Shown one piece after another: positions 2,819 through 14,567 of a DNA stretch of 50,762 nucleotides (position 1 is the stretch's first letter; each line of letters starts with the position of its first letter). The DNA is from Candidatus Brevefilum sp. Lineage in GTDB: Bacteria > Chloroflexota > Anaerolineae > Anaerolineales > Anaerolineaceae. Both the position numbers and the translations under genes were made by a program. The notes beneath the pieces are model-generated. The model saw only the letters and a list, made by a program, of their open reading frames with translations, did no database searches and was not told the DNA's origin. Where the stretch lies: assembly GCA_029210815.1 (NCBI GenBank), contig JARGGB010000015.1, positions 1 through 50,762 on the forward strand. Direction: 5' to 3'.

Positions 2819-5800
2819 TCACTTGTGTTTCTTCGGAACGATTGGTTCTTCAGGTTCTTCATTAGAATAATTCGGCGTATGCGGTACTACAATGTTTCCG
2901 CCGCCTATCGTTACTGCGTTCGTCGGTGCGGGTTTTTCCAGTGCGAGCCTATCCATCCCTCGCACCCAGAACTTATCGACGCCGGTGCCTGGCTCGTTGC
3001 AGTCCCCAACATAAACCGAGAACGGAATTCCGCCAAGGGTGACGTACCCACCGAGTCCTTCATTCGCTTCAGGATCCCATGTCTCATAGGTCGACTTGCC
3101 GCTAAAGGTCGCAATACCGCATCCATTGATGTCCTTGAGTGCCAGCCCGTCGAGCGCGTTGCTCTTCAGGCGTGAGATGGTACCATCCGCATGATGACGG
3201 ATAACCAGCAGGTTGCCCTGGATATTGGTGGCTTTTTTGTTGTATTTCATCGTGAAGCCAAAGTTTGTCTTCTCGGTGGTACCGGGCCAGTAGAACCAGC
3301 CGCCGCCGGTGGCATAGCCGAGACTCGGGTCGAACACAGTGAACCCATCGAAACTTTCACCGAAGTAATAATCCCCATATATAAGGGCGACAACGTCGTA
3401 GGTATCGACCGCGATAGCCTGGCTATTCGTGCATGTAAAGGTCTTCACACCATCATAACCCGTACCCTCAACAGCCGCTGTGCAATCGAGTGTGATCGCG
3501 CCGCCGCCGGATAGGGGTTCCAGCTTTACAATTAAGCCAGCATTATTGATGTCTCCAGCTATTGCTGATTCAGCAGGCATATCCGGAAGCTTTTCTCTAA
3601 CCTTCAGCACAAGGGTTAACTCGTTAGCATTCAGCGGCCCCTCAGGAGCTGAGACCTGGAGTGCGGCAGGGTTACCATCGTCAAAGGTTATGATTGCGTT
3701 CTCCCTGGTTACGGTAAAAGTGCCTTCTACGTAGCTAAAGGTGTAGTTGTTGTCCTCGCCACCTGAGCAGGTAATTGGATAATCACCTGCAGGGCTCACG
3801 GTCAGACGTGTTGTCGAACAGGTTGGCTTAGTGTTGATTACACTCACATCCTCGCCCAGCACAAAACCAGCGTACTGGAACGTCAACGGGGATGGACTTG
3901 CGTCGCTGTACTGAGCTGTCTGGTTGTCAGCGGTGATGGTCAGCGATGCCTTGTCGACATGGAAGTTGCCTGCCACGTAGCTGAAGGCATAGTTGGCGTC
4001 CACACCGCCCGAACAACTGGTCGGGTAGTCACCAGGTCCGCTGCCCTGGACGTAAGTCGTGCTGCAGGTGGGCGCCTTATCGAGATCGCCCCCGTCGTCA
4101 CCCAGCACAAAGCCCGCATAACTGGGCGTGATCCCGGGTGCCGGGTCGCCGTAGATACCATCAGTAGGGCTTAAAGCAGTCACTGTCAGCGCAGCTTTGT
4201 TCACCGTTAGCGTCGCCGCACTGCTGATCGCGGTCCCGCATGCATTACTGAACTCAGCCCGGAACTGGTTACCGCTCATTAGGACAGTCGGGTTGGCAAT
4301 AGTCAGGTTCGAGGTAGTAGCGCCAGGAACAAGATCCCATGTCGTCCCATTTGTACTTCTACGCCACTGGACGCTCGGCGCGGTTCCGGAGGCTGCAGCC
4401 GAAAAGGTCGCGCTGGGGACTCCATAGGTCACTGTTTGGTTAGAAGGTTGCGTGGTAACCACCGGTGCGGTATTGACAGTCAGAATAGCGGCGGAAGTGG
4501 TAGCAGACCCGGCCGAGTTTGTAAAGACCGCATGGTAACGCTTCCCGTTATCCCCAGACGCCGCTGTGAAGGTATACGTCATCGATGTGGCGCCGGAAAT
4601 GTTGTTCCAGGTTGTCCCGCCGTCATTACTTACCTGCCACTGTATAGTCGGCGCAGGTATCCCGCTGGCAGCCGCCGTGAAGCTTACACTGCTCCCAGCG
4701 CAGGTCGTGTGATTCGCAGGTTGGGTTGTAATCACCGGCGCTTGCGCGGTCACTTCGGTTACCTCCTGCGTGATAGTCAGGCTCGTGATCGTGCCCCCTT
4801 CATCCGTATACATGGCGAAGATGTTGTGGAAGCCGACAGCCAACGCCGATGTCGAGAAGGTAAAGGCGTAAGAGCCCGTACCGCTGGCGGTGGGGCCTGA
4901 CCCTAAGCCCAAAAGCTCGGGGCCCCATGCACCGAACCCGAGGTAAACCATTTCCATAAAATTGACAGTCCCACCAGGCGTGGTGCCGTTCTCATCCCAT
5001 AATGTCGCCGTGAATGTCACTTCACTCCCAAATTGGGAAGAATTCGGCGAGGAGGTAAGCGTCAATCGGTTAATCATCCACTGCCGTGAAACCGCATAGT
5101 CGTCAGTAGCTCCCGCGGGTTTCACACCGAAGTAATAGGCGTTACCACGAGAAAGACCGGTGTATGTACGAGGGCTGGTGCACGGAACCCATTCCTCCAG
5201 TAAAACAGTGTTCTGGGTACTGTATTCATACTCAAGCAGAGAGCACACCAGATCGACACCCTCCGGAACGCTGGAAAAAGTGAGGGTTGCTTCGGTACTT
5301 TCAATGTATTGTGCCGGACCGCCTGTGATGCTTATCTGTGGCACACCGATGGTCCATTGGTGCACCGCCATTGTCGATTCTGTGAGAGGGGCTCCCTGGG
5401 CTTTCACCCCGAACCAATGAGCACTCCCAAGGGAGAGATCAGTGTATACTTTCGGACTATTGCAAGGTGACCAGGTCCAGGTGTCGGGGGTAAAGTCATA
5501 ACTTTCGGACAAGCTGCACTCGAACTCAGCACCCGCAGTGTCGCTGCTGAACTCGAAGGTTGCTTGCGTGCTGTAAGTGATCTCGGGAGGTGCACTGGTT
5601 ATGGTCACAGATGGCCAGATCCGGTCTGTTACCATCTGGTAGATAGGATTAACGCCAGTAGATATGTCACCGCCGCTACCATTGTCATAGCCAGCGAAGA
5701 TCGCATGATCACCGATAGCTAGCGTAGAAGTCAAGAACGTGTACTCATATGAATCCCCCCCGAGTGAGGTTGCGGTCGTGTCTTCACCCAGGATTATCGG

Positions 5801-6097
5801 CGTCAAGCTGTACCCCTCCATCACCAATTCAAAGAAGATGACCTTCCCGGTCGGCGCCCCGCCGCTGGTGGACACAACTGCTGTGAACGTCACTGTATCC
5901 CCGTAAACAGATGGGTTCAGCGAAGAGGTCAGACTAGTAAAACCAACGAATGAATCGGCATTCACAATCAACGTGGTGCTTACGCCCTGTACGGAGGCTG
6001 CAGGAACCACGATCAACAGGATCAACACCACTGCTATGGCTATTTTCTTTTTCAGTAGGACATTTCCAATAAAAATCCGATTAATTAAGCCTTTCAT
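2819..6097 (-). CDS. Large exported protein with Ig-like and MBG-type repeats
   Basis: 1092 residues. The N terminus is basic and followed by a hydrophobic stretch (about 16-36, KKKIAIAVVLILLIVV), consistent with a signal peptide or anchor. After it come an Ig-like domain (about 55-150) and two copies of a Cys-containing repeat with TYSTQATFEFSS / ESTEATLTFSS and YFGVK (about 160-345). A second Ig-like domain follows (about 345-450), then two I-set-like repeats starting ITTQPANHTT and VTTQPSNQTV (about 455-635). Two MBG/YDG-type repeats follow (IYGDPAPGITPSYAGFVLGDD and its partner, about 637-790). The C-terminal region carries ATGGGWFYWPG...FGFTMKY and a charged tail EEPIVPKKHK. No catalytic motif is seen. 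Adhesion or a surface structural role is inferred. It is the second gene of a duplicated module, and its base composition is clearly richer in GC than its neighbours. SD AGGAG precedes the ATG. Confidence 0.85.
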   Translation of the reverse strand: MKGLINRIFIGNVLLKKKIAIAVVLILLIVVPAASVQGVSTTLIVNADSFVGFTSLTSSLNPSVYGDTVTFTAVVSTSGGAPTGKVIFFELVMEGYSLTPIILGEDTTATSLGGDSYEYTFLTSTLAIGDHAIFAGYDNGSGGDISTGVNPIYQMVTDRIWPSVTITSAPPEITYSTQATFEFSSDTAGAEFECSLSESYDFTPDTWTWSPCNSPKVYTDLSLGSAHWFGVKAQGAPLTESTMAVHQWTIGVPQISITGGPAQYIESTEATLTFSSVPEGVDLVCSLLEYEYSTQNTVLLEEWVPCTSPRTYTGLSRGNAYYFGVKPAGATDDYAVSRQWMINRLTLTSSPNSSQFGSEVTFTATLWDENGTTPGGTVNFMEMVYLGFGAWGPELLGLGSGPTASGTGSYAFTFSTSALAVGFHNIFAMYTDEGGTITSLTITQEVTEVTAQAPVITTQPANHTTCAGSSVSFTAAASGIPAPTIQWQVSNDGGTTWNNISGATSMTYTFTAASGDNGKRYHAVFTNSAGSATTSAAILTVNTAPVVTTQPSNQTVTYGVPSATFSAAASGTAPSVQWRRSTNGTTWDLVPGATTSNLTIANPTVLMSGNQFRAEFSNACGTAISSAATLTVNKAALTVTALSPTDGIYGDPAPGITPSYAGFVLGDDGGDLDKAPTCSTTYVQGSGPGDYPTSCSGGVDANYAFSYVAGNFHVDKASLTITADNQTAQYSDASPSPLTFQYAGFVLGEDVSVINTKPTCSTTRLTVSPAGDYPITCSGGEDNNYTFSYVEGTFTVTRENAIITFDDGNPAALQVSAPEGPLNANELTLVLKVREKLPDMPAESAIAGDINNAGLIVKLEPLSGGGAITLDCTAAVEGTGYDGVKTFTCTNSQAIAVDTYDVVALIYGDYYFGESFDGFTVFDPSLGYATGGGWFYWPGTTEKTNFGFTMKYNKKATNIQGNLLVIRHHADGTISRLKSNALDGLALKDINGCGIATFSGKSTYETWDPEANEGLGGYVTLGGIPFSVYVGDCNEPGTGVDKFWVRGMDRLALEKPAPTNAVTIGGGNIVVPHTPNYSNEEPEEPIVPKKHK

Positions 6098-6229
6098 TTT
6101 TTACTCCTTTTTTCCATCCTCAAGTACCAAAATTTCTTACTAAACAAAATCTCAATTTGATTTAAATGCATAAATTTACTTACCAACACCTCCTCTACCA
6201 TAATCGCAGCCCCTTTTCTTTTCCATTGG

Positions 6230-6505
6230 TTACCCTGTTTGATTGGCATTCAGCTTGCTCAATTCCTCTACCGTTACCACCTTGCTGGGCTGCTGCTTTA
6301 GCAACCCCATATCAAGATCACCCGGTGGGTCTGACAGGTCAAAAAGGATCACTGCAGGTGTCATTGCTTCCAGACTCTGTCTGGCGACCGGGTCCTGGGG
6401 ATCGATTTCGCATACATCCAAGCCATGCTCACGTTTCAAACAAGCACCTATTCCTGCAAGATACAAAGACCTGCCAAAGATGACAACGCTTTTCTTGAAC
6501 GACAT
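6230..6505 (-). CDS. Small receiver-like protein, shortened paralogue
   Basis: 91 residues, clearly homologous along its length to the protein at 11028-11390. Shared segments are IFGRSLYLAGIGACL / IYGRSLSLAGISACL, ILFDLSDPPGDLD / ILYDLNDPPNDLD, and KVVTVEELS / RVVTAGELS. Compared with the 120-residue copy it lacks about 21 residues in the middle (after LLKQQP) and the charged C terminus, with the reading frame kept. The pattern resembles a degenerate receiver domain. A hydrophobic strand 1 has YGRS/FGRS where active receivers have an acidic pair, and an Asp sits in the position of the phospho-acceptor (LFDL). It starts at ATG with GAGGAA upstream, 30 nt from a conserved promoter. The exported-protein gene 2819-6097 follows 132 nt downstream. 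Function is unknown. Confidence 0.75.
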   Translation of the reverse strand: MSFKKSVVIFGRSLYLAGIGACLKREHGLDVCEIDPQDPVARQSLEAMTPAVILFDLSDPPGDLDMGLLKQQPSKVVTVEELSKLNANQTG

Positions 6506-6535
6506 TGAATTTCCTCGTATTGTTGGGACACTTAT

Positions 6536-6602
6536 AGTGTATAAAGAATTTTGAAAAAATAAAATGAACGAAAGTACAGTCTGAACAAAATAAAAGTACA
6601 GT
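6536..6602 (-). promoter_or_regulatory. Module promoter 1 with two 22-bp-spaced activator-type boxes
   Basis: Reading the minus strand: ACTGTACTTT (6602-6593), a second ACTGTACTTT (6580-6571) exactly 22 bp on, 27 bp, then TATACACT (6543-6536) with ATAAGTG after it, and the ATG at 6505. No good -35 element is visible. This layout is nearly identical to that at 11420-11486. The direct-repeat boxes two helical turns apart suggest a dimeric activator, possibly the NarL-type regulator at 12169-12879 (inference). Confidence 0.72.
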
Positions 6603-6712
6603 TCATCAAGATTTGCTTTTGAACCTAAAAATCAATACAAAGATGTTTTTGACCTTTTGTAAAAAAGCCATGGTCGATTTTAATAAGAATTGATAAATCC
6701 ACAAATTTAAAC

Positions 6713-6749
6713 AAAAAATTGGGGATTCCTACAATCGAGAAATCCCCAA
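6713..6749 (-). terminator. Intrinsic terminator of the beta-helix protein gene
   Basis: Perfect 9-bp stem TTGGGGATT (6719-6727) / AATCCCCAA (6741-6749). On the minus strand it is followed by TTTTTT (6718-6713), about 30 nt after the stop of the gene at 6780. Confidence 0.85.
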
Positions 6750-6779
6750 TCAACTTCTTTACCCTTTCGGAAGTTTTCG

Positions 6780-9700
6780 TTAATCCGCGCTGCCGCTAAT
6801 GATCAATGGCATAAACACTTCCCAGAATATCGGCTCCTGTTCAAGCTCATAAGCGCCGATATCGCAGCTTGAACCCTGTGGGCGTGTTATACCGCGCTGG
6901 TCAATTGTCACCGTACAGCTTGGTGCCGCGTCAATCGCTGGCGACCCCTCAAGCAAAGCCATTGTCGGTGTGTGCCCTGGAGAATTGATCACCAGTGCAC
7001 CCAATAATGGATCCAGCGGCGTTTCAGCAGTTCCTACCAGGTCACTCGCTGCCCAATCATTGGTAGAACCGGTCGGGTCGCCGATCAGGTTTCCGCCATG
7101 GGATTCGAAACTACCATAGACGTCAAGCCACTTTGCATGACCGGCCGTTGCTGGATCGGTCATATCTGTGTTCCCCGCCACGATGCTGTTTTGGATCTCA
7201 AGCTGGCCGTTTCCTGTTGGATCGATATAAATTCCAGCACCACCTCCCCGTTCTTCTCCAGGTTCTTCAAAATCGGCATTGGAGAGATTTCCGCTGACAG
7301 TGGTATGAATGAGTTTTACCACGCAATCATTGCCCACGAAGATGCCGCCGCCGTAATTATTGGTGATATTCCCGCTGATCGTCGAGTTGATCAATGTCGT
7401 CGTTGCATCGTTATAGGCTGTGGTCACACCCGCACCCCCTAATGTGCCTGTCCCTTCATTCCCTGTCACAGTACAGCGGTTCAATATCAGATGTCCACCA
7501 TCATTAAAGATTCCGCCACCAGCAAAAGCCACAATATTTCCGGGGCCAATCACACAGTCCGTCATGGTCAAGCTGCTGCCTTCGGAGAGAGCCACACCGC
7601 CACCCTGAAAACTCCATCCATCTTTAATCGTCAATCCAGAAATGGATGCTATCACCGGAATTTCATATCCAGAGACTGAAATGACACGGCTGACATCATT
7701 CCCGCTGATTGCAAGCTGGTCTGCCCCTGGGCCAATTATTGTCAGGTCTTTGTTGATCCTGATCTGCTCACCACTCAATACAATCGTGCCAGGTAGTTCA
7801 CTGAGGAGTCCCTCAAAGTCAATACTATCACCGCTAATGGCATAATGAACCGCTTCACGCAAACTGCAGTGGGTGCTGTCGCAGGCACCATTGTCAATAT
7901 CATCAAAAGTGTTCACATGCCATGTGATTGGCTCTTGGACGGTCAGATCGATTATGGCAGTGCTCGTATGGTAGTTATTGTCGGTCACCTGGAATTCAAA
8001 ACTATCTGCACCTGTGCTGCCGTCGGGTGTATAAGTGATGATCCAATAATAGGTCACCTCGAATTTCCCGGTTTCTCCATTAAATCCTATCTCATAACTG
8101 GTTTGAATCAATTCATCAAGCGTTCCAAGAACAGGGTCTGATATGATTTCAATTTCCAGCTTATCTGGAAGAAAATCGACCACATCAGGATCTTTCGCGA
8201 TCAATTCAATCGTTGTTGGGATGGTCGACACAACTGTCAAATTGTCACCATAGGCTTTAGGGGCTTCATTAGGTGCGATCACCAAGGAAATGGTGGCTGG
8301 ATCAGAAGTTAAACCAGCGTCACTTGCCGTGAAAGTGAAAGTGTCTGATCCATTATAGGGGGGTTCACTGATATCGGGGGTGTAATCTGCAACTGCTGAA
8401 CAAACACGTACGCCTGATCCATCTTCATCATATTCACAGGCCTCAAAGACTGGTGTGGTTACTGTTCCATGGACAGGCGGGTCAACAACTTCGAAGGATA
8501 AGTCGTCATTTCCCTGCAAATCGAATGCCTCTAATCTTATCCGGGAGTGTCCAACTTCTCCCACAAGCCACTCACCATCCCAGGCTTCTGGGGGCAGGCT
8601 GGCTGGATCCAGAACTTCAAGGTTCCTCGTTATAGATTCGCTGCTGCCAACGCCTTCTTCTGTTACATACCCCGTTACAGTATACGTATCAGCTGCTGGA
8701 TAAATATGTTCAGGGAATTCACACTCATGATCGGGATCTGCAGGCATTGTTTGCGGATCGCTGCCGTCACCCCAATCGATGGTACATGTAAAAGGGCCAA
8801 TATCCCAATCAATAAAACGGATATCTGCATATACCGGATTGTTAATATAAGCTGGCTCCTGGATGAAGGTAATATAAACATCCTTTGGTGGTACATTGTT
8901 AATTGTTACCCATTGTTGATCTCTTACATAACCATTAATCGAATTGATCCAATAATCCATGCAGATTTGATAGCTGCCGCTTTCATTAAATACAGCATAA
9001 AGATTATTGGTAATTGTGGACACATAGGTGTCACATGTATCACCAGGGTTATCTCCTCGCCACCAATTAAGGCTGGTGCTGCCCAGGTCGGATATGGCTG
9101 CGAAATTCACACCTTCAAACTGATTTGGGTTTTCTGGAGACCAGGAAAATGCCCGTTCCGGGCCAATCCAAAATCCATAGGTTTTCTTTCCTTTGACACC
9201 CAACGCATCCGAAGCCTGGATTTCTACTGAAAAAGATCCATGCTCTGTTGGTGTTCCTGATAAGGTGATCGTCCCCGCATCCGAATCAACATCATAAGTT
9301 AACCAAGATGGAATGCTGACCGGATCGATGGTATAGGGTGCCAAGCCTCCTGAAAGAGTGACAACCTGGCTGTAAACCTCGCCAACCTTACCTGTGGGAA
9401 GAGTCCCTGGACTGAAAACCAATGCAGGAAACACCGTCAGGGAATATTCTTTACTGAAATCAACATCTGTTGAGTCATGCCATATTGCTGTAAATGTTAT
9501 TACACCGGGTGTATGTGGGTCTGCAGCATTATCATCACTCATAAGCATACCGGTTTCATTGTAAAGAGTGAATGGTACTTCTATTAACCCACTACTGCTC
9601 CAACTGTAAGGTGGGGTGCCACCAACAGCGGTTAACTGCTGGCTGTAATGAAATCCAACTGTGGCTGGCGGCAGGGTATGGGGCAGGATGTCAAATTCGA

Positions 9701-10922
9701 GCTGCTCATAGGCACCAATGTCACAAAATTCATTTTGTGGACGGGTGACACCGCGCTGATCCAATCCATCGACAGGTGAGGCGGCACAGATCGTATTGTC
9801 CCCTGCATCGATGGCGGGAGATCCAGGCAGGAGCGCCATCGTCAGGGTTAGCCCACCGTTGTCCGCCAGGGCAGCCAGCATTGGGTCGCCGCTCACGTAA
9901 TTAACTGCCCCCGCTGAACAGGACCCATCCTCCACCAGGTTGTGGTAATTAGAAACAATTACGCCACCATTGCTATTTAAGCAATCACTACTACCAGTTG
10001 TGTCAGCAATGATTGTATTGGCAAAATTAAGCCTTCCAGTGGCATCAGTGTTTACCAATGTTGGAGATCCAGAATTTCCCGCTAAGGTGCTGTTATATAA
10101 GGTCATCGCTCCAAAGTTGTAAATTCCGCTACCATAAAGAGTAGCAAAGTTCTGCGTAAATGTACAGTTGGCAACCGTCGCAGTGCCATAATTATAGATT
10201 CCACCACCGTTAGAGCTGTACGAACTGCCCTCAGCTCTATTGCCTATCAGGGTGCTACCGGATAAAGTCAGCTGACCTTCATTGTATAATCCACCGCCAA
10301 TAGAGGATGAATTATATGCGATGGTGCTATCCTTCACTGTAAGGATGCGCGTTAGATTGTTGTGTACTCCTCCTCCGCCAAGAACAGCACTGTTTCCCTC
10401 TATGACGCTGTTCATGATGGTTAAATCGTAATTGTTATATACCCCCCCTCCTAACCAACTCACGTTGTTGTTGTAAAGAACACTGTTTTTAATTGTGAGT
10501 GTACCATCATTGTATATACCGCCACCAGAAGGTCCATCGATTGTATAATCATCAGCGCTCCCATCTACAACAATCAAACTGTCCAGGGTGACCGTTTTAC
10601 CACTATTTATCCAAAAAACACGGGTTAGCGCATTGCCGCTGATTGTGACCTTTGAAGGCAGCGTCGAGCCGTCGATTGTCAAATCCTTACCAAGTGTCAA
10701 TTGGGAGTCAAGCACTATTGTGGCTCCCGATAGGCTTACATCAAATGTGACCGTGCCTCCAGAACATACATCGACAATCGCCTGGCGCAGTGATCCCTCC
10801 CCGCTGTCCGCAATTGTCGTCACCACAACACTTTCGAGGCAGGTTTGCGCCACTGCAGGTACGACTGGCAGCATGCCTACAAGCAGAATGATAGAAATTA
10901 CCAGATTGATTAACCTTTTCAT
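6780..10922 (-). CDS. Giant exported protein with two CSLREA/beta-helix units and Ig/cadherin-like domains
   Basis: About 1380 residues from the ATG at 10922 (MKRLINLVISII). That start has AAAGGAG 6 nt upstream and gives a clean signal peptide ending near AVAQ. An in-frame start further upstream (10970) would disrupt the signal peptide and is not favoured. Domains in order: a CSLREA-type opening (VVTTIADSGEGSLRQAI) and right-handed beta-helix with repeated GGGIYN (about 25-330), and a closing segment AIDAGD...LDQRGVTRPQ...CDIGAYE (about 365-410). Then Ig-like repeats with GGTPPYSW / GGLAPYTI (about 415-590), a PKD-like segment (IDWGDGSD) and cadherin-like repeats (about 780-990). A second CSLREA unit (CDSTHCSLREA) with beta-helix follows, and a second closing segment (DQRGITRPQ...CDIGAYEL). 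It ends VFMPLIISGSAD. No enzyme motif is seen. A surface or secreted adhesive role is likely. Confidence 0.87.
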   Translation of the reverse strand: MKRLINLVISIILLVGMLPVVPAVAQTCLESVVVTTIADSGEGSLRQAIVDVCSGGTVTFDVSLSGATIVLDSQLTLGKDLTIDGSTLPSKVTISGNALTRVFWINSGKTVTLDSLIVVDGSADDYTIDGPSGGGIYNDGTLTIKNSVLYNNNVSWLGGGVYNNYDLTIMNSVIEGNSAVLGGGGVHNNLTRILTVKDSTIAYNSSSIGGGLYNEGQLTLSGSTLIGNRAEGSSYSSNGGGIYNYGTATVANCTFTQNFATLYGSGIYNFGAMTLYNSTLAGNSGSPTLVNTDATGRLNFANTIIADTTGSSDCLNSNGGVIVSNYHNLVEDGSCSAGAVNYVSGDPMLAALADNGGLTLTMALLPGSPAIDAGDNTICAASPVDGLDQRGVTRPQNEFCDIGAYEQLEFDILPHTLPPATVGFHYSQQLTAVGGTPPYSWSSSGLIEVPFTLYNETGMLMSDDNAADPHTPGVITFTAIWHDSTDVDFSKEYSLTVFPALVFSPGTLPTGKVGEVYSQVVTLSGGLAPYTIDPVSIPSWLTYDVDSDAGTITLSGTPTEHGSFSVEIQASDALGVKGKKTYGFWIGPERAFSWSPENPNQFEGVNFAAISDLGSTSLNWWRGDNPGDTCDTYVSTITNNLYAVFNESGSYQICMDYWINSINGYVRDQQWVTINNVPPKDVYITFIQEPAYINNPVYADIRFIDWDIGPFTCTIDWGDGSDPQTMPADPDHECEFPEHIYPAADTYTVTGYVTEEGVGSSESITRNLEVLDPASLPPEAWDGEWLVGEVGHSRIRLEAFDLQGNDDLSFEVVDPPVHGTVTTPVFEACEYDEDGSGVRVCSAVADYTPDISEPPYNGSDTFTFTASDAGLTSDPATISLVIAPNEAPKAYGDNLTVVSTIPTTIELIAKDPDVVDFLPDKLEIEIISDPVLGTLDELIQTSYEIGFNGETGKFEVTYYWIITYTPDGSTGADSFEFQVTDNNYHTSTAIIDLTVQEPITWHVNTFDDIDNGACDSTHCSLREAVHYAISGDSIDFEGLLSELPGTIVLSGEQIRINKDLTIIGPGADQLAISGNDVSRVISVSGYEIPVIASISGLTIKDGWSFQGGGVALSEGSSLTMTDCVIGPGNIVAFAGGGIFNDGGHLILNRCTVTGNEGTGTLGGAGVTTAYNDATTTLINSTISGNITNNYGGGIFVGNDCVVKLIHTTVSGNLSNADFEEPGEERGGGAGIYIDPTGNGQLEIQNSIVAGNTDMTDPATAGHAKWLDVYGSFESHGGNLIGDPTGSTNDWAASDLVGTAETPLDPLLGALVINSPGHTPTMALLEGSPAIDAAPSCTVTIDQRGITRPQGSSCDIGAYELEQEPIFWEVFMPLIISGSAD

Positions 10923-11027
10923 TTTTTCTCCTTTTTCCATCCTCAAACACCAAAATATCAAATCAAACAAAAATTCTATTACGTCAACAACGCTTATTTC
11001 CTAAGCAGCACCTCCTCAACGATACTT

Positions 11028-11390
11028 TTACAGTCCTTTTTGTTTTCGTGTTTCGTCAGTATGGTTTGAGATGAGCTGGCTCAACTCCCCTGCAGTTACC
11101 ACCCGGCTCCGCTGACCCCTCAAAACCAATACCTCATCACTGGAAGGATCCACACCAATTAGCAGCAATCCGGGTCGCTGCTGCAGCAAATCCAAATCCA
11201 GGTCATTTGGCGGGTCGTTCAGATCGTACAATATCGTCTCCGGGTTAAATTCATCCAGGTATTGTTTAGCCCGGAAATCATGTGGGTCAACGAATTTGAC
11301 CTCCAGGTCATCGTCAAGTTCCAGGCAAGCAGAAATGCCTGCTAAACTCAGGGACCTGCCATAAATAAGCACTTTTCTCTTTGCTGACAT
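11028..11390 (-). CDS. Small receiver-like protein (full-length copy)
   Basis: 120 residues: strand-like KRKVLIYGRS, then a helix with LAGISACLE, then LEVKFVDPHD, then PETILYDLNDPPNDLDLDLLQQ, then GLLLIGVDPSSDEVLVLRGQ, and RVVTAGELSQLI. The alternating order and the LYDLNDPP segment match the beta3/phospho-Asp region of response-regulator receivers (compare LMDIHMP in the regulator at 12169). The acidic pair normally needed for Mg2+ at the end of beta1 is replaced by YGRS, and there is no output domain. A pseudo-receiver or partner-binding protein is therefore likely (inference). ATG with AGAGGAA upstream. The giant exported protein gene follows 105 nt downstream. Paralogue of 6230-6505. Confidence 0.78.
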   Translation of the reverse strand: MSAKRKVLIYGRSLSLAGISACLELDDDLEVKFVDPHDFRAKQYLDEFNPETILYDLNDPPNDLDLDLLQQRPGLLLIGVDPSSDEVLVLRGQRSRVVTAGELSQLISNHTDETRKQKGL

Positions 11391-11419
11391 TGGATTCCTC
11401 TTCCGGATAGGACAATTAC

Positions 11420-11486
11420 AGTGTATAAGATTTTATGGCCCTGATGTATGCATAAAAGTACAGTCGAGAGGAGAAAAAAGTACAGT
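11420..11486 (-). promoter_or_regulatory. Module promoter 2 with two 22-bp-spaced activator-type boxes
   Basis: Minus strand: ACTGTACTTT (11486-11477), ACTGTACTTT (11464-11455), 27 bp, TATACACT (11427-11420), then about 30 nt to the ATG at 11390. Box sequence, box spacing and box-to-TATA distance are the same as at 6536-6602, while the intervening bases differ. Confidence 0.72.
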
Positions 11487-11575
11487 CTTGATTGAATGGT
11501 GAGTGGTGAGTAGTGATTGGTCGTAGGTCATCGCTCAATGTTAATGGGAGAAAACTTAAAGATGAATGTTTTGCA

Positions 11576-11663
11576 GGGTGGGTTGGCGGGGAAGTTAATA
11601 CAAAATATTACTTTAATTTTGCATATCAGATCAATATAAGAACCAAATGGATACCAACCCACC
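11576..11663. repeat. MITE-like element copy A (diverged)
   Basis: An 88-bp unit bounded by GGGTGGGTTGG (11576-11586) and CCAACCCACC (11654-11663), which are inverted repeats of each other. The interior differs from copies B and C. Confidence 0.55.
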
Positions 11664-11678
11664 GATCACTTGTCTCCA

Positions 11679-11882
11679 GCAAGCAAGGGGAATTAAGCAA
11701 AAATGAATCAGGTATTAGGCGATTGGGTATCAGGCAAAGACATAAAGCCTGGCAAATACCAAACCACCAGCACAGGAAAATAATTAATGATGGTGGGTTG
11801 GTCAATAAAGCCCGTAAATGAGAATTTCCCAAGGGTATCCTAAGGCATTGAATGAAAAAATTCCATGACCAACCCACCCTAC
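11679..11882. repeat. ~200-bp tandem repeat, unit 1 (contains MITE-like copy B, 11792-11878)
   Basis: Starts GCAAGCAAGGGGAATTAAG and ends with the inverted-repeat element whose ends are GGTGGGTTGG (11792) and CCAACCCACC (11869-11878). Unit 2 at 11950-12143 matches it along its length with scattered substitutions and small indels. Confidence 0.7.
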
Positions 11883-11949
11883 GCGACTGCCAATATTATT
11901 TCTAAAACAATATGCTGAAATCCAACAAAATAATCCCCCCTAACCCCCC

Positions 11950-12143
11950 GCAAGCAAGGGGAATTAAGTAAAAAGGAAGCAGGTATTAGGCAATTGGTTA
12001 TTAGGAAAAGACATGAAGCATGGCAAATCCCAAATGCTCAGAAGAATAGAACGGTGGGTTGGTCAATAAAGCCCGTAAATGAAAATTTCACAAGGGTAAC
12101 CTAATGTTTTGAATGAAAAAAATCCATGCCCAACCCACCCTAC
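11950..12143. repeat. ~200-bp tandem repeat, unit 2 (contains MITE-like copy C, 12053-12139)
   Basis: Second unit of the duplication. It has the same opening GCAAGCAAGGGGAATTAAG and the same closing 87-bp element with GGTGGGTTGG / CCAACCCACC ends. Interior similarity to copy B is high (GTCAATAAAGCCCGTAAATG is identical). Confidence 0.7.
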
Positions 12144-12168
12144 GCGGCTTTCAGCTTTAAACCATTTG

Positions 12169-12879
12169 CTACACGCTATCCTCTGGTCTGACCAATCCCA
12201 TCCGAGCGGCATATGCAATCACCTGGGTTCGATTTTGCAAATGCAGACAGTTTAGAATTTCCCCCATATGGTATTTCACGGTACTTTCAGAAATGCTTAA
12301 TGTGGCAGCAACTTGACGATAGGTCTGTCCCTGGGCAACCAGGGTCAGTACCTGCACCTGGCGCGGTGATAAGCTGTCGTCACATGCGGATTGAGGTGAT
12401 AAATCACCTGGTGCTTCCTGCATGGCTTCACGGACTGGCTTGGTGTCCTGGGTTGAAAAGGCTTTAAGGATCTTTTCCGCCAAACCGGGTGAAAAGGGCG
12501 GATGGCCTTCCTGCAAATCTTTCAAGTACTCAAAAAATTCCTCGGCGTCCAGGCTTTTCACCAAAAAGCCAGATGCCCCGCTCCTGACAGCCTCAAATAA
12601 GTCAACTTCATCCTCAGACATGGTCAGCATCACAATTTTAATTTCAGGCATCTCTGCTTTTATCAGACGTGTGGCAGACACCCCATCACAGCGCGGCATA
12701 TGGATATCCATCAATATGACATCCGGTTTCAGCTGGCGCGCTTTATTCAGTGCTTCAAACCCATCATGGGCTGTTCCAGCAACCTGAATGCCCTCAGATG
12801 AAAGTAAATTTTCCAGCCCTTCCAGAAAAAGGTTGTGATCATCGACCAGCAAAACACGCATTTTCGATAGATTATTCAT
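12169..12879 (-). CDS. NarL/FixJ-type response regulator
   Basis: 236 residues. N-terminal receiver with acidic pair D13/D14, phospho-acceptor D58 (ILMDIHMP), switch T86 and conserved K108 (FLVKSL). C-terminal LuxR-type helix-turn-helix begins at LSPRQVQVL (about 170) with the recognition helix around SESTVKYHMGEIL. It binds DNA as a dimer when phosphorylated, by family knowledge. It starts 2 nt after the stop of the kinase gene, so the two are co-transcribed and form one two-component system. A second in-frame ATG at M7 (MRVLLVDD) is also possible. It is the nearest DNA-binding regulator to the paired boxes at 11420-11486 and 6536-6602 and a natural candidate to bind them (inference). Confidence 0.93.
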   Translation of the reverse strand: MNNLSKMRVLLVDDHNLFLEGLENLLSSEGIQVAGTAHDGFEALNKARQLKPDVILMDIHMPRCDGVSATRLIKAEMPEIKIVMLTMSEDEVDLFEAVRSGASGFLVKSLDAEEFFEYLKDLQEGHPPFSPGLAEKILKAFSTQDTKPVREAMQEAPGDLSPQSACDDSLSPRQVQVLTLVAQGQTYRQVAATLSISESTVKYHMGEILNCLHLQNRTQVIAYAARMGLVRPEDSV

Positions 12880-12881
12880 GC

Positions 12882-14567
12882 TTACACCGATTTTCTATTG
12901 ATAGGCACACATACAAATATTTCCGTCCCCTGGCCGGGATGAGACTGCATCCGAATCTTGCCGCCAACTGTCTCTGCACGCTCTCGCATCATTTCCAGGC
13001 CAAAATGGTCCGTCCCTTTATGATCATTCCCTTCAACATCAAAACCTCGACCATTATCCTGCACGGAGACACAGATAGACGAGTCCACCATATCAAACTT
13101 GATCCGTACCTGTGAAGCATTGGCATGTTTTCGGATGTTGGTGAGGGCTTCCTGTAAAATTCTCAATAATTGGATCTCGACCATGGGGTCGATCAGGTTG
13201 ATGTCAAAGTCATCAGATGTGATCAAATCCGTGTGAATGGTTGTATTTGCTTTAAATTGACGGACATACTTTTCAAGGGTGGCAAGCAGACCTTGCTCGG
13301 ATAGGGTCAATCGCATGCCCCGAATTGACTCACGGATATCCACCTCCCCTTCACGAGCCGCTTCAATTAATCGCTCCAGGTGCTTATCAGCCATTTCTTC
13401 GTTATTTCGGTTGAGGAAGCGTTGAATGGTTTGACCCTGGGTCGCAATGAATGCAAACACCTGGGCAAGATCATCATGCAGTTCACGGGCAATCTGCTCA
13501 CGTTCTTGCATGGTCGCCATTACACGCTGCTGCTCAAAGATCCTTGCTTGTGCTGCTCGCTGTTCAGTTATGTCGGTCAGCAGGAGCAGTTGGCCTACGT
13601 GATCATCTCGCCAATCCTTAAGCCAGAGAATATCTAACAGGAAATTCTGTTCTTTTACCTCTGATTTACGATTAAATTCAAGTTGGTGAATATCACTTTC
13701 GCTTACCATATTTTGTGGGTAAGCATCTAAAACATCCCCAATAAATTTGCTCTTCACTTTCTGGCTTGAAATCTGCAGCATCTTTTCTACCATAGGATTC
13801 AGACTGACAATTTTCAGCTGATGGTCAAGGACCAGCATTCCAATGGGCATCTGGTTGATAACAGCTTGGCGTGCTAGTGGAATCGGGCCAAGGATGCGAA
13901 AGCGAAAGAAAACAATCGCGTACATCAAAGAAGTGAAAGCGATCCCAACCGGTGCAAACTGGATGTTAGAAGATCCCCGGTTAGCAATATCAAAAAAATA
14001 TAATAAGCGCATCATGATCTGCCCAATAACCATGATCACCACTGGCCAGCGGTTTTGAGGCGAGTGAATAAACAACCAGATAAAAACAAAGATATTGAAG
14101 AGGAAACTGAGGTAAACATAAATAAGAAAATATTTCATCAATGGGCCAGGATTTACGATTAGGGTGCCATTTAAATCAAAACCTTCCCAAATCAAGTGAT
14201 GTAAATGATCGGTAAAAACCATCACAGCAATTATTATTGGAACAATCCAGAGCAAGACCATATTGCGGATGGTAAGCCATCGCTTCGGCCAGGTATAAGC
14301 TAATAGAAAGCAAGTTATGGCTGTGGCTGCTGGCAGTTGGAAAACCACCTGAAATTTTCGCCAGAAAATTTTTAAATCGATGCCAACGGCAGTTAACTCA
14401 ATAATTGACCCAATAGACCACAATAATCCAAAAATACATGCAATTGCAAAGGGAATGGCACCGGGCATATCACGATGGCGGAAGCTAAAAACAGCCAGTG
14501 CAAGCATAAGCAAACTTGAAATGATCGAAGGCCAAATATAGGGAACGTAAGCAAACACCAGACTCAC
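12882..14567 (-). CDS. 7TM-type sensor histidine kinase (HisKA_3 class)
   Basis: 561 residues. The first ~225 residues hold about seven membrane segments, of the 7TM sensor type found at the N terminus of many kinases. A PAS-like domain follows (about 235-335, MLVLDHQLKIVSLNPMVEKM). The HisKA_3 dimerisation box carries the phospho-acceptor H364 (REQIARELHDDLAQ). The ATPase domain has an N-box (EALTNIRKHAN, about 473-483) and G1 box DNGRGFD (504-510). It starts with GTG at 14567 preceded by GGAGA. The partner regulator follows immediately. The signal is unknown. The 7TM input suggests a membrane or lipophilic cue. Confidence 0.92.
   Translation of the reverse strand: MSLVFAYVPYIWPSIISSLLMLALAVFSFRHRDMPGAIPFAIACIFGLLWSIGSIIELTAVGIDLKIFWRKFQVVFQLPAATAITCFLLAYTWPKRWLTIRNMVLLWIVPIIIAVMVFTDHLHHLIWEGFDLNGTLIVNPGPLMKYFLIYVYLSFLFNIFVFIWLFIHSPQNRWPVVIMVIGQIMMRLLYFFDIANRGSSNIQFAPVGIAFTSLMYAIVFFRFRILGPIPLARQAVINQMPIGMLVLDHQLKIVSLNPMVEKMLQISSQKVKSKFIGDVLDAYPQNMVSESDIHQLEFNRKSEVKEQNFLLDILWLKDWRDDHVGQLLLLTDITEQRAAQARIFEQQRVMATMQEREQIARELHDDLAQVFAFIATQGQTIQRFLNRNNEEMADKHLERLIEAAREGEVDIRESIRGMRLTLSEQGLLATLEKYVRQFKANTTIHTDLITSDDFDINLIDPMVEIQLLRILQEALTNIRKHANASQVRIKFDMVDSSICVSVQDNGRGFDVEGNDHKGTDHFGLEMMRERAETVGGKIRMQSHPGQGTEIFVCVPINRKSV

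Follow-up and report, generated by a model that had tools for sequence, protein, structure and literature searches.

A predicted stand-alone pseudo-receiver heads exported-cargo operons beside a kinase/regulator pair in Candidatus Brevefilum and other Chloroflexota

The window analysed here is a 50,762-nucleotide (nt) stretch of DNA from Candidatus Brevefilum sp. (Chloroflexota, Anaerolineae; assembly GCA_029210815.1, contig JARGGB010000015.1), the minus strand of which carries, in order of transcription, genes for a sensor histidine kinase, a NarL-type response regulator, small protein A, exported protein A, small protein B and exported protein B, the last four forming modules A and B. We propose, with a probability of roughly 0.55, that these genes constitute a three-part two-component system together with its output operon, in which the regulator would drive a "brake plus cargo" unit and the small protein, a putative pseudo-receiver, would feed back on the signal. 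Within this proposal the predicted wiring from kinase and regulator to operon is well supported, and the braking role of the pseudo-receiver is suggested by analogy with characterised systems.

The gene plan recurs in other genomes. The small-protein query finds a match in 46 of the 396 genomes of the class, the window's genome included, at an expectation value (E) of 0.001 or less, and a profile of the family finds one in 321 of the 396, the weak matches being mostly taken as ordinary receivers; in a phylum-wide draw of 400 genomes 24 had a match at 1e-9, of which 15 do not belong to the class. For analysis of gene context, set 1 took 60 of the 61 matches lying outside the window's genome, less L072 (N-terminus missing), L078 (the match is the regulator itself) and L082 (a short match inside a longer open reading frame, ORF), leaving 57, and set 2 comprised 41 profile matches selected for low E-values and short frames, to the exclusion of weaker, partial and long-frame ones, which makes 98 matches in all. 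A NarL-type regulator lies upstream of 65 of the 86 testable matches (37/50 in set 1 and 28/36 in set 2), a kinase upstream of 61 of the 86 (34/50 and 27/36), and the next gene is of exported type in 65 of 91 (34/54 and 31/37), as compared with 85 of 305 other same-strand gene pairs from the same loci (Fisher p 1e-13), export being judged by a rough hydrophobicity criterion under which a twin-arginine translocation (Tat) motif also counted. The 69 kinases scanned, a sample selected by similarity to the kinase of the window, all have HisKA_3 and HATPase_c domains with varying inputs (seven-transmembrane, 7TM, in 23/69; PAS, GAF or HAMP in the others), and 13 of the 69 also carry receiver and GerE domains. 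Kinase and NarL-type regulator are found in one ORF before the small gene in L048, L056, L060, L064, L066, L070 and L076, and likewise in L080, L102, L107, L111, L117 and L123, placing the path from sensor to DNA within one polypeptide.

Ahead of each small gene in the window stand two ACTGTACTTT boxes 22 bp apart, followed by TATACACT, a presumed -10 region placed by eye. With up to three mismatches allowed, the tandem box ACTGTACTT-N13-ACTGTACTT occurs at two sites in the 2.66-Mb, 96% complete assembly of the window's genome (G000), both exact and one in each module promoter; the reversed-pattern control gave two chance matches in the same assembly at the same tolerance. The combination of box and TATACACT was found only at the two module promoters of this assembly, and the corresponding control gave 0. 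A relative with one module in the same place (G243) has both boxes identical within surrounding DNA that differs, and the module of G263 has the tandem box with two mismatches. Sites with three mismatches in G243, G263 and G271 were taken as chance because their count is not above that of the control. G243 has one extra tandem site with one mismatch and no adjoining small gene (L157 4526-4556; G243:C5:935525-935555), possibly the remains of another module; an exported-type protein of 523 residues starts about 2.1 kb downstream of it. Separately, a single ACTGTACATT (one mismatch, minus strand) at 10159-10168 inside the exported A gene is probably a chance occurrence.

Across the related loci, hereafter cassettes, a GACTR..TTT box is present in 26 of 69 upstream regions (shuffle mean 0.12; reverse strand 5), and GACTR pairs spaced 22 or 23 bp apart number 5 and 6, with at most one at any spacing in 100 shuffles. 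By a box rule blind to the regulator (GACTR and three further bases that either precede a T tract or form a palindrome), 29 of 68 cassettes carry a box, and the box follows the recognition helix of the neighbouring regulator: Lys in the helix goes with C at box base 8 in 22/22 cases and Arg with G in 7/7 (p 6e-7), and base 5 is G in 12/12 boxes when helix residue 3 is Arg and in 3/17 when it is not (p 1e-5). A later group of 34 loci included 23 with a regulator and 6 with a box by the rule; the helix could be parsed in 5 of these 6, and 5/5 obey both rules. The combined helix/box table thus holds 25 and 9 entries without L148, the helix of which was not parsed (26 and 9 with it), making a total of 34 cassettes in which operator base 8 fits the regulator helix. 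When judged by eye, G430, G614 and G860 agree with the helix rules while failing the first base of the box rule, G574 agrees through its right arm only, base 8 of G740 disagrees with the helix rule, and L172 has the helix type and no visible box. On a helix-masked tree of 34 regulators, Lys/Arg changed three times and base 8 changed along with it each time. Together with the genome-wide uniqueness of the tandem box, this covariation supports the prediction that the small gene is controlled by the regulator of its own system through binding at the boxes.

Two simpler descriptions of the box were tried and set aside. A universal 18-bp palindromic operator was rejected, as 14 of 70 upstream regions have at least 5/7 arm pairs (shuffle mean 0.67), a real signal in a minority of cases, and the half-box with a T tract is commoner. 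The box as nothing other than a terminator hairpin was likewise rejected: a matching arm within 45 nt upstream exists for 15 of 32 T-flanked boxes, the window's modules not being among them, so that box and terminator often share sequence, and the covariation of the box with the regulator helix argues for a binding site rather than a mere terminator. It is often the box itself that forms the 3' arm of a hairpin following the regulator gene, with a T tract behind it (L034, L036, L042, L043, L044, L047, L049 and others), and operator and terminator may share the same DNA.

The exported partners show no comparable constancy. Exported A has a hydrophobic N-terminus, choice-of-anchor Q and CSLREA segments and He_PIG and Big_9 immunoglobulin (Ig)-like domains, and is 65% identical to the exported partner in G243 over 977 residues. 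The partners include choice-of-anchor, CSLREA, Ig-repeat, Tat-signal, sulfatase-type and five-transmembrane proteins as well as multihaem cytochromes, with no family common to them; the most frequent NCBIfam assignment among the 41 scanned (the two window proteins and 39 of 47 next-gene ORFs), choice-of-anchor Q, covers 5/41. The variability of the cargo leaves kinase and regulator as the steady partners of the small protein. Over 46 cassettes, pseudo-receiver distances correlate with those of kinase and regulator (r 0.51-0.63) about as closely as the latter two do with each other (0.52-0.67), in favour of a common unit. An earlier note on this DNA had proposed a signal-controlled surface system, and both the recurrence of the kinase/regulator pair upstream and the covariation of the small-gene box with the recognition helix support signal control of an exported system; homologues of the small protein are not scattered without exported neighbours, the outcome that the same note had named as damaging to it. 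Its forecast of the neighbours was right as to an exported-type next gene and too narrow in naming CSLREA proteins (2/41 partners) and 7TM kinases, which are minority features, and the dedicated role that it suggested for the small protein with its exported partner finds no support in so varied a set of partner families. Regarding the C-termini, a short LPL-like motif, possibly an anchoring or sorting signal, ends exported A (the window's ORF at 6780) and the partners in L092, L093, L053, L059 and L073 (forms VFMPLIISG, VFLPLILAG, IFFPLVYGN, VMLPMVMR, IHLPLVMR and YLLPLMFKN), many others being without it.

The small protein itself appears to be a distant and altered receiver. Neither small A nor small B matches a Pfam family, and in the window's genome small A matches only itself and small B at E ≤ 0.1, the family profile adding a third, weaker match at E ≤ 0.001 that is gone at 1e-12. 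Small A aligns with NarL-type receivers, and in the core alignment (45 of 61 rows, the window's included, with 12 divergent loci and L058, L080, L085 and L086 set aside) receiver positions, as assigned from alignment and model, reveal a retained phospho-acceptor in an otherwise changed pocket: Gly11 and Ser/Thr13 replace the acidic pair after strand 1 in 45/45 members each, position 56 after strand 3 is D in 40/45 and E in 5/45, position 80, where receivers have Thr/Ser after strand 4, is V/L/I in 45/45, and the majority consensus is without the receiver Lys. With acid pocket and Lys missing, the small protein is not expected to be phosphorylated in the usual way. The PF00072 family profile matches 2 of the 45 members at E ≤ 1 (best 0.0068) and not the window protein, NCBIfam regulator models match some members (best 2.2e-7, by a model found in 6/45), and searches of the family profile against the PDB gave weak matches that are mostly receivers (best E 0.0044); the last two results make a distant kinship with receivers likely. 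A Pfam NpmA match in 10/45 small proteins (best 1.3e-5) was taken as chance.

The AlphaFold model of small A (mean predicted local distance difference test score, pLDDT, 85) matches a receiver through strands 1-4 and helices 1-3; residues 87-91 form a strand in place of helix 4, and one more helix ends the chain. Foldseek ranked adenylation enzymes first and DesR, RcsB, NarL and LiaR-type receivers from rank 17, all scores being weak, and VIA-align placed receivers at Z ≤ 7.9, tied or mixed with other folds. As neither comparison ranks receivers above other folds, the assignment leans on sequence profiles, and on those grounds the small protein is best called a putative stand-alone pseudo-receiver, the latter being a term that a 2025 minireview defines as a receiver without one or more of five active-site residues (PMC12632262).

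Module B has kept this unit in a shortened form. Small B lacks 21 residues (63 nt, in frame), equivalent to strand 4 and the following strand of the small A model, and its own predicted structure retains the first three strands and helices with an end at low confidence. Differences between small A and small B number 26, 28 and 52 at codon positions 1, 2 and 3; with the frame kept after the deletion and the differences mostly at third positions, small B was apparently long under coding constraint. Exported B resembles neither exported A nor the G243 and G263 partners, and finds no match in the stretches around those modules, so that the duplicated promoter and small gene are now followed by a cargo of another family. 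In another genome, G775, the small gene (L160 8001-8260) leaves the family sequence after about 76 residues, near the residue where the small B deletion starts, and runs into a shortened trpB-like gene with no exported gene after it.

Our proposed mechanism combines these elements as follows. The kinase would sense a signal via its membrane domain and phosphorylate the NarL-type regulator, as their families lead one to expect, and the regulator would bind the tandem GACTGTAC-type boxes before each small gene and activate both small and exported genes. The pseudo-receiver, as first product of the operon, would most likely bind the kinase, with the regulator as second choice, and damp the signal in the manner of FixT and Osp, generating negative feedback tied to output; its position at the head of the operon would suit a brake that scales with that output. 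The exported protein would be an exchangeable cargo on the cell surface or outside, and module B probably brings further cargo under this control with little feedback, since its second promoter and small-gene copy head an unrelated cargo and its pseudo-receiver is shortened. More speculatively, and at odds we consider poor, such loci might form a distinct Chloroflexota class of three-part systems. In these a pseudo-receiver, with Gly-x-Ser/Thr for the acidic pair in its core members, would be encoded first in export operons driven by the regulator, gauge the output and reset the kinase, perhaps via a ligand in the altered pocket, and lineages would build new surface systems by placing other cargo behind a copy of promoter and brake, module B being an example.

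Receivers of NarL-type regulators dimerise, and α4 is part of the face where receivers often pair. It is conceivable, if doubtful, that the pseudo-receiver acts on the regulator's receiver and that the heterodimers bind the boxes differently, as co-activator or anti-activator: the distances of the small protein correlate no less with those of the regulator than with those of the kinase, and WhiI/BldM, discussed in PMC12632262, is a precedent, whereas the small A model is without a helix at the α4 position. Direct service to the exported protein, for instance as a translation, folding or secretion helper, strikes us as improbable; the short or overlapping gap to the next gene (-4 nt in L039, L040, L067, L074 and L087) and the alike leaders of both modules would suit such a helper, but the next-gene families differ widely, cytochromes and Tat-signal proteins included, and the neighbourhood is of signalling type.

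A functionless relic, left between regulator boxes and cargo gene, would account for a small B that is without 21 residues yet in place and for the cut-short small gene of G775. Such decay is hard to reconcile with the substitution rates (nonsynonymous dN 0.12 and synonymous dS 0.82 for small A against G243; dN 0.37 and dS 2.3, the latter saturated, for A against B), with the invariance of Gly11 in the core or with relatives across the class and beyond, and we regard it as unlikely.

Several observations nonetheless weigh against the three-part reading with a pseudo-receiver brake. As to the partner, a test for mimicry of regulator helix 1 was weak (53 of 68 cassettes; matched pairs p 0.006, four control segments 0.015, 0.29, 0.45 and 0.99 (opposite direction)), and the distance correlations do not separate kinase from regulator. 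Regarding the pocket, Gly11 is present in 103 of 132 matches from four sets (55/57, 26/41, 10/19 and 12/15, counted without the three dropped rows), distant members having Ser, Thr, Asn, Gln or Lys instead in some cases and three being unaligned there, and an acidic residue is kept at position 11 in L127, L133 and L134; the pocket change therefore marks the core family and not its whole spread. Gene context varies too: a regulator match is absent upstream in 21 of 86 cases and the next gene is not of exported type in 26 of 91, and outside the class a regulator lies within 2 kb upstream in 10/17 and an exported-type gene follows in 8/17, L138, L139 and L142 having both. By the rule, 39 of 68 cassettes are without a box, some sharing the helix type and others differing; one of the three exceptions to the base-5 rule is the regulator of the window, with Ser as residue 3 against a G at base 5; and sign tests on independent pairs are small, with 3/3 for Lys/Arg (p 0.25, too small alone) and a mean of 3.8/5 pairs agreeing and none opposite for residue 3 (median p 0.125), so that the box-helix case is carried by the pattern as a whole, and by its holding in new loci, rather than by one p-value. 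Finally, small B is without strand 4 yet constrained, which simple loss of function fails to explain.

Coordinates of the locus are collected in Table 1. The two modules on one strand that the earlier note had described, with gaps of 105 nt (A) and 132 nt (B) between small and exported genes, were confirmed in coordinates, strand and gaps, and Pfam agreed with it on the upstream pair, assigning HisKA_7TM, PAS, HisKA_3 and HATPase_c to the kinase and Response_reg and GerE to the regulator, which is thereby of the NarL/FixJ type, as is FixJ itself. The likeness it saw between the leaders of the exported genes is real, with TTTTGGT and GAGGATGGA in both, and extends to the small-gene promoter regions with their shared two boxes and TATACACT. 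Paralogy of the small genes holds in so far as B matches A at E 1.5e-19 with 51% identity, B not being a full paralogue on account of its missing residues, and the stated difference between the exported proteins is confirmed by blastp, which detects no mutual similarity at E ≤ 1e-5. At full length the exported-A ORF opens with TTG at 10970; the likelier start is the ATG at 10922 after AAAGGAG. Between regulator and small A lie two copies (12142-12052 and 11883-11791) of an element of about 90 nt with inverted ends (GTAGGGTGGGTTGG ... CCAACCCACC), which resembles a small transposable element, and a similar one occupies the same place in G243 (L032 about 7590-7680).

Table 1. Features of the kinase/regulator locus and its two modules, in order of transcription
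Feature	Position	Strand	Basis
Sensor histidine kinase, 7TM input, PAS, HisKA_3 and HATPase_c	12882..14567	-	Pfam; also seen ahead of the small gene in related loci
NarL-type response regulator, recognition helix SESTVKYHMGEI	12169..12879	-	Pfam Response_reg and GerE
Candidate regulator box 1, module A (ACTGTACTTT)	11477..11486	-	box search; conserved in G243; putative binding site
Candidate regulator box 2, module A, 22 bp downstream of box 1	11455..11464	-	box search; putative binding site
TATACACT, presumed -10 region, module A promoter	11420..11427	-	presumed role
Small protein A, 120-residue putative stand-alone pseudo-receiver	11028..11390	-	
Leader of exported A, resembles exported B leader	10923..10955	-	comparison of both leaders
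Exported protein A, 1380 residues	6780..10922	-	Pfam, NCBIfam
Terminator-like hairpin and T tract between modules, after exported A	6717..6751	-	scan; shuffles give about as many sites, so weak alone
Candidate regulator box 1, module B (ACTGTACTTT)	6593..6602	-	box search; putative binding site
Candidate regulator box 2, module B	6571..6580	-	box search; putative binding site
TATACACT, presumed -10 region, module B promoter	6536..6543	-	presumed role
Small protein B, 91 residues, paralogue of A with 21-residue in-frame deletion (strand 4 region)	6230..6505	-	
Leader of exported B, resembles exported A leader	6098..6132	-	comparison of both leaders
Exported protein B, 1092 residues: Big_3_5, Ig/I-set and MBG_2 domains	2819..6097	-	Pfam

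Among the matches listed from the open-access literature, none describes the small-protein family or its altered pocket, the position of its gene ahead of interchangeable exported cargo, or the operator code. The 2025 minireview calls the switching of bacterial pseudo-receivers a mystery and counts only 2 of the 20 atypical regulators it describes as not orphans (PMC12632262). Here many natural stand-alone pseudo-receivers adjoin a kinase and a regulator (the latter in 65/86), 34 with a helix-fitting operator, so that partner and mechanism become directly testable. Furthermore, in a phylum with few cultured members the Lys/Arg-to-base rule helps to predict regulator targets from sequence, and the interchangeable cargo illustrates how sensory control may be extended to giant surface proteins.

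That pseudo-receivers can tune two-component systems is already established. Minor Pfam pseudo-receiver families named in the minireview (PF06490 and five others; PMC12632262) have, like the small protein, receiver topology without the usual phosphorylation residues; the 45 core members between them match 18 Pfam families at E ≤ 1, to which none of these six belongs, and VpsR (PF20161) matches 1/45 at E 0.045. CmrRST of Clostridioides difficile, as sketched there, resembles the present loci in that a pseudo-receiver is encoded with an otherwise normal kinase/regulator pair (PMC12632262), but CmrT is an atypical OmpR-family regulator (PMC12548384), unlike a stand-alone domain encoded first in a target operon. 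Closer in its features (not by sequence comparison) is FixT, known from Caulobacter and Sinorhizobium: it consists of a single receiver domain and inhibits FixL (PMC7078487), exerting on a kinase the negative feedback that is proposed here; the Caulobacter protein binds an Fe-S cluster and has a 4-Cys motif, whereas no Cys is conserved in the small-protein core, the highest column reaching 13% of the 45 rows. Osp of Rhodobacter sphaeroides is, with FixT, the nearest working parallel, again by features and not by sequence comparison. Osp keeps Asp51 and is without two acidic residues and the Lys, inhibits the kinase CckA and binds the kinase transmitter, still works after an Asp-to-Asn change, and depends for expression on CtrA, for which a site is predicted 54 bp ahead of the start codon (PMC9430884). 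Osp belongs to the alphaproteobacterial CckA-ChpT-CtrA system, is presumed there to be monocistronic and heads no cargo operon, and its kinase inhibition has been demonstrated, whereas that of the small protein is proposed. Both are stand-alone receiver-like proteins that keep the Asp and have lost the acidic pair after strand 1 and the Lys, and, just as Osp expression depends on CtrA, the small gene is predicted to lie under the regulator of its own system.

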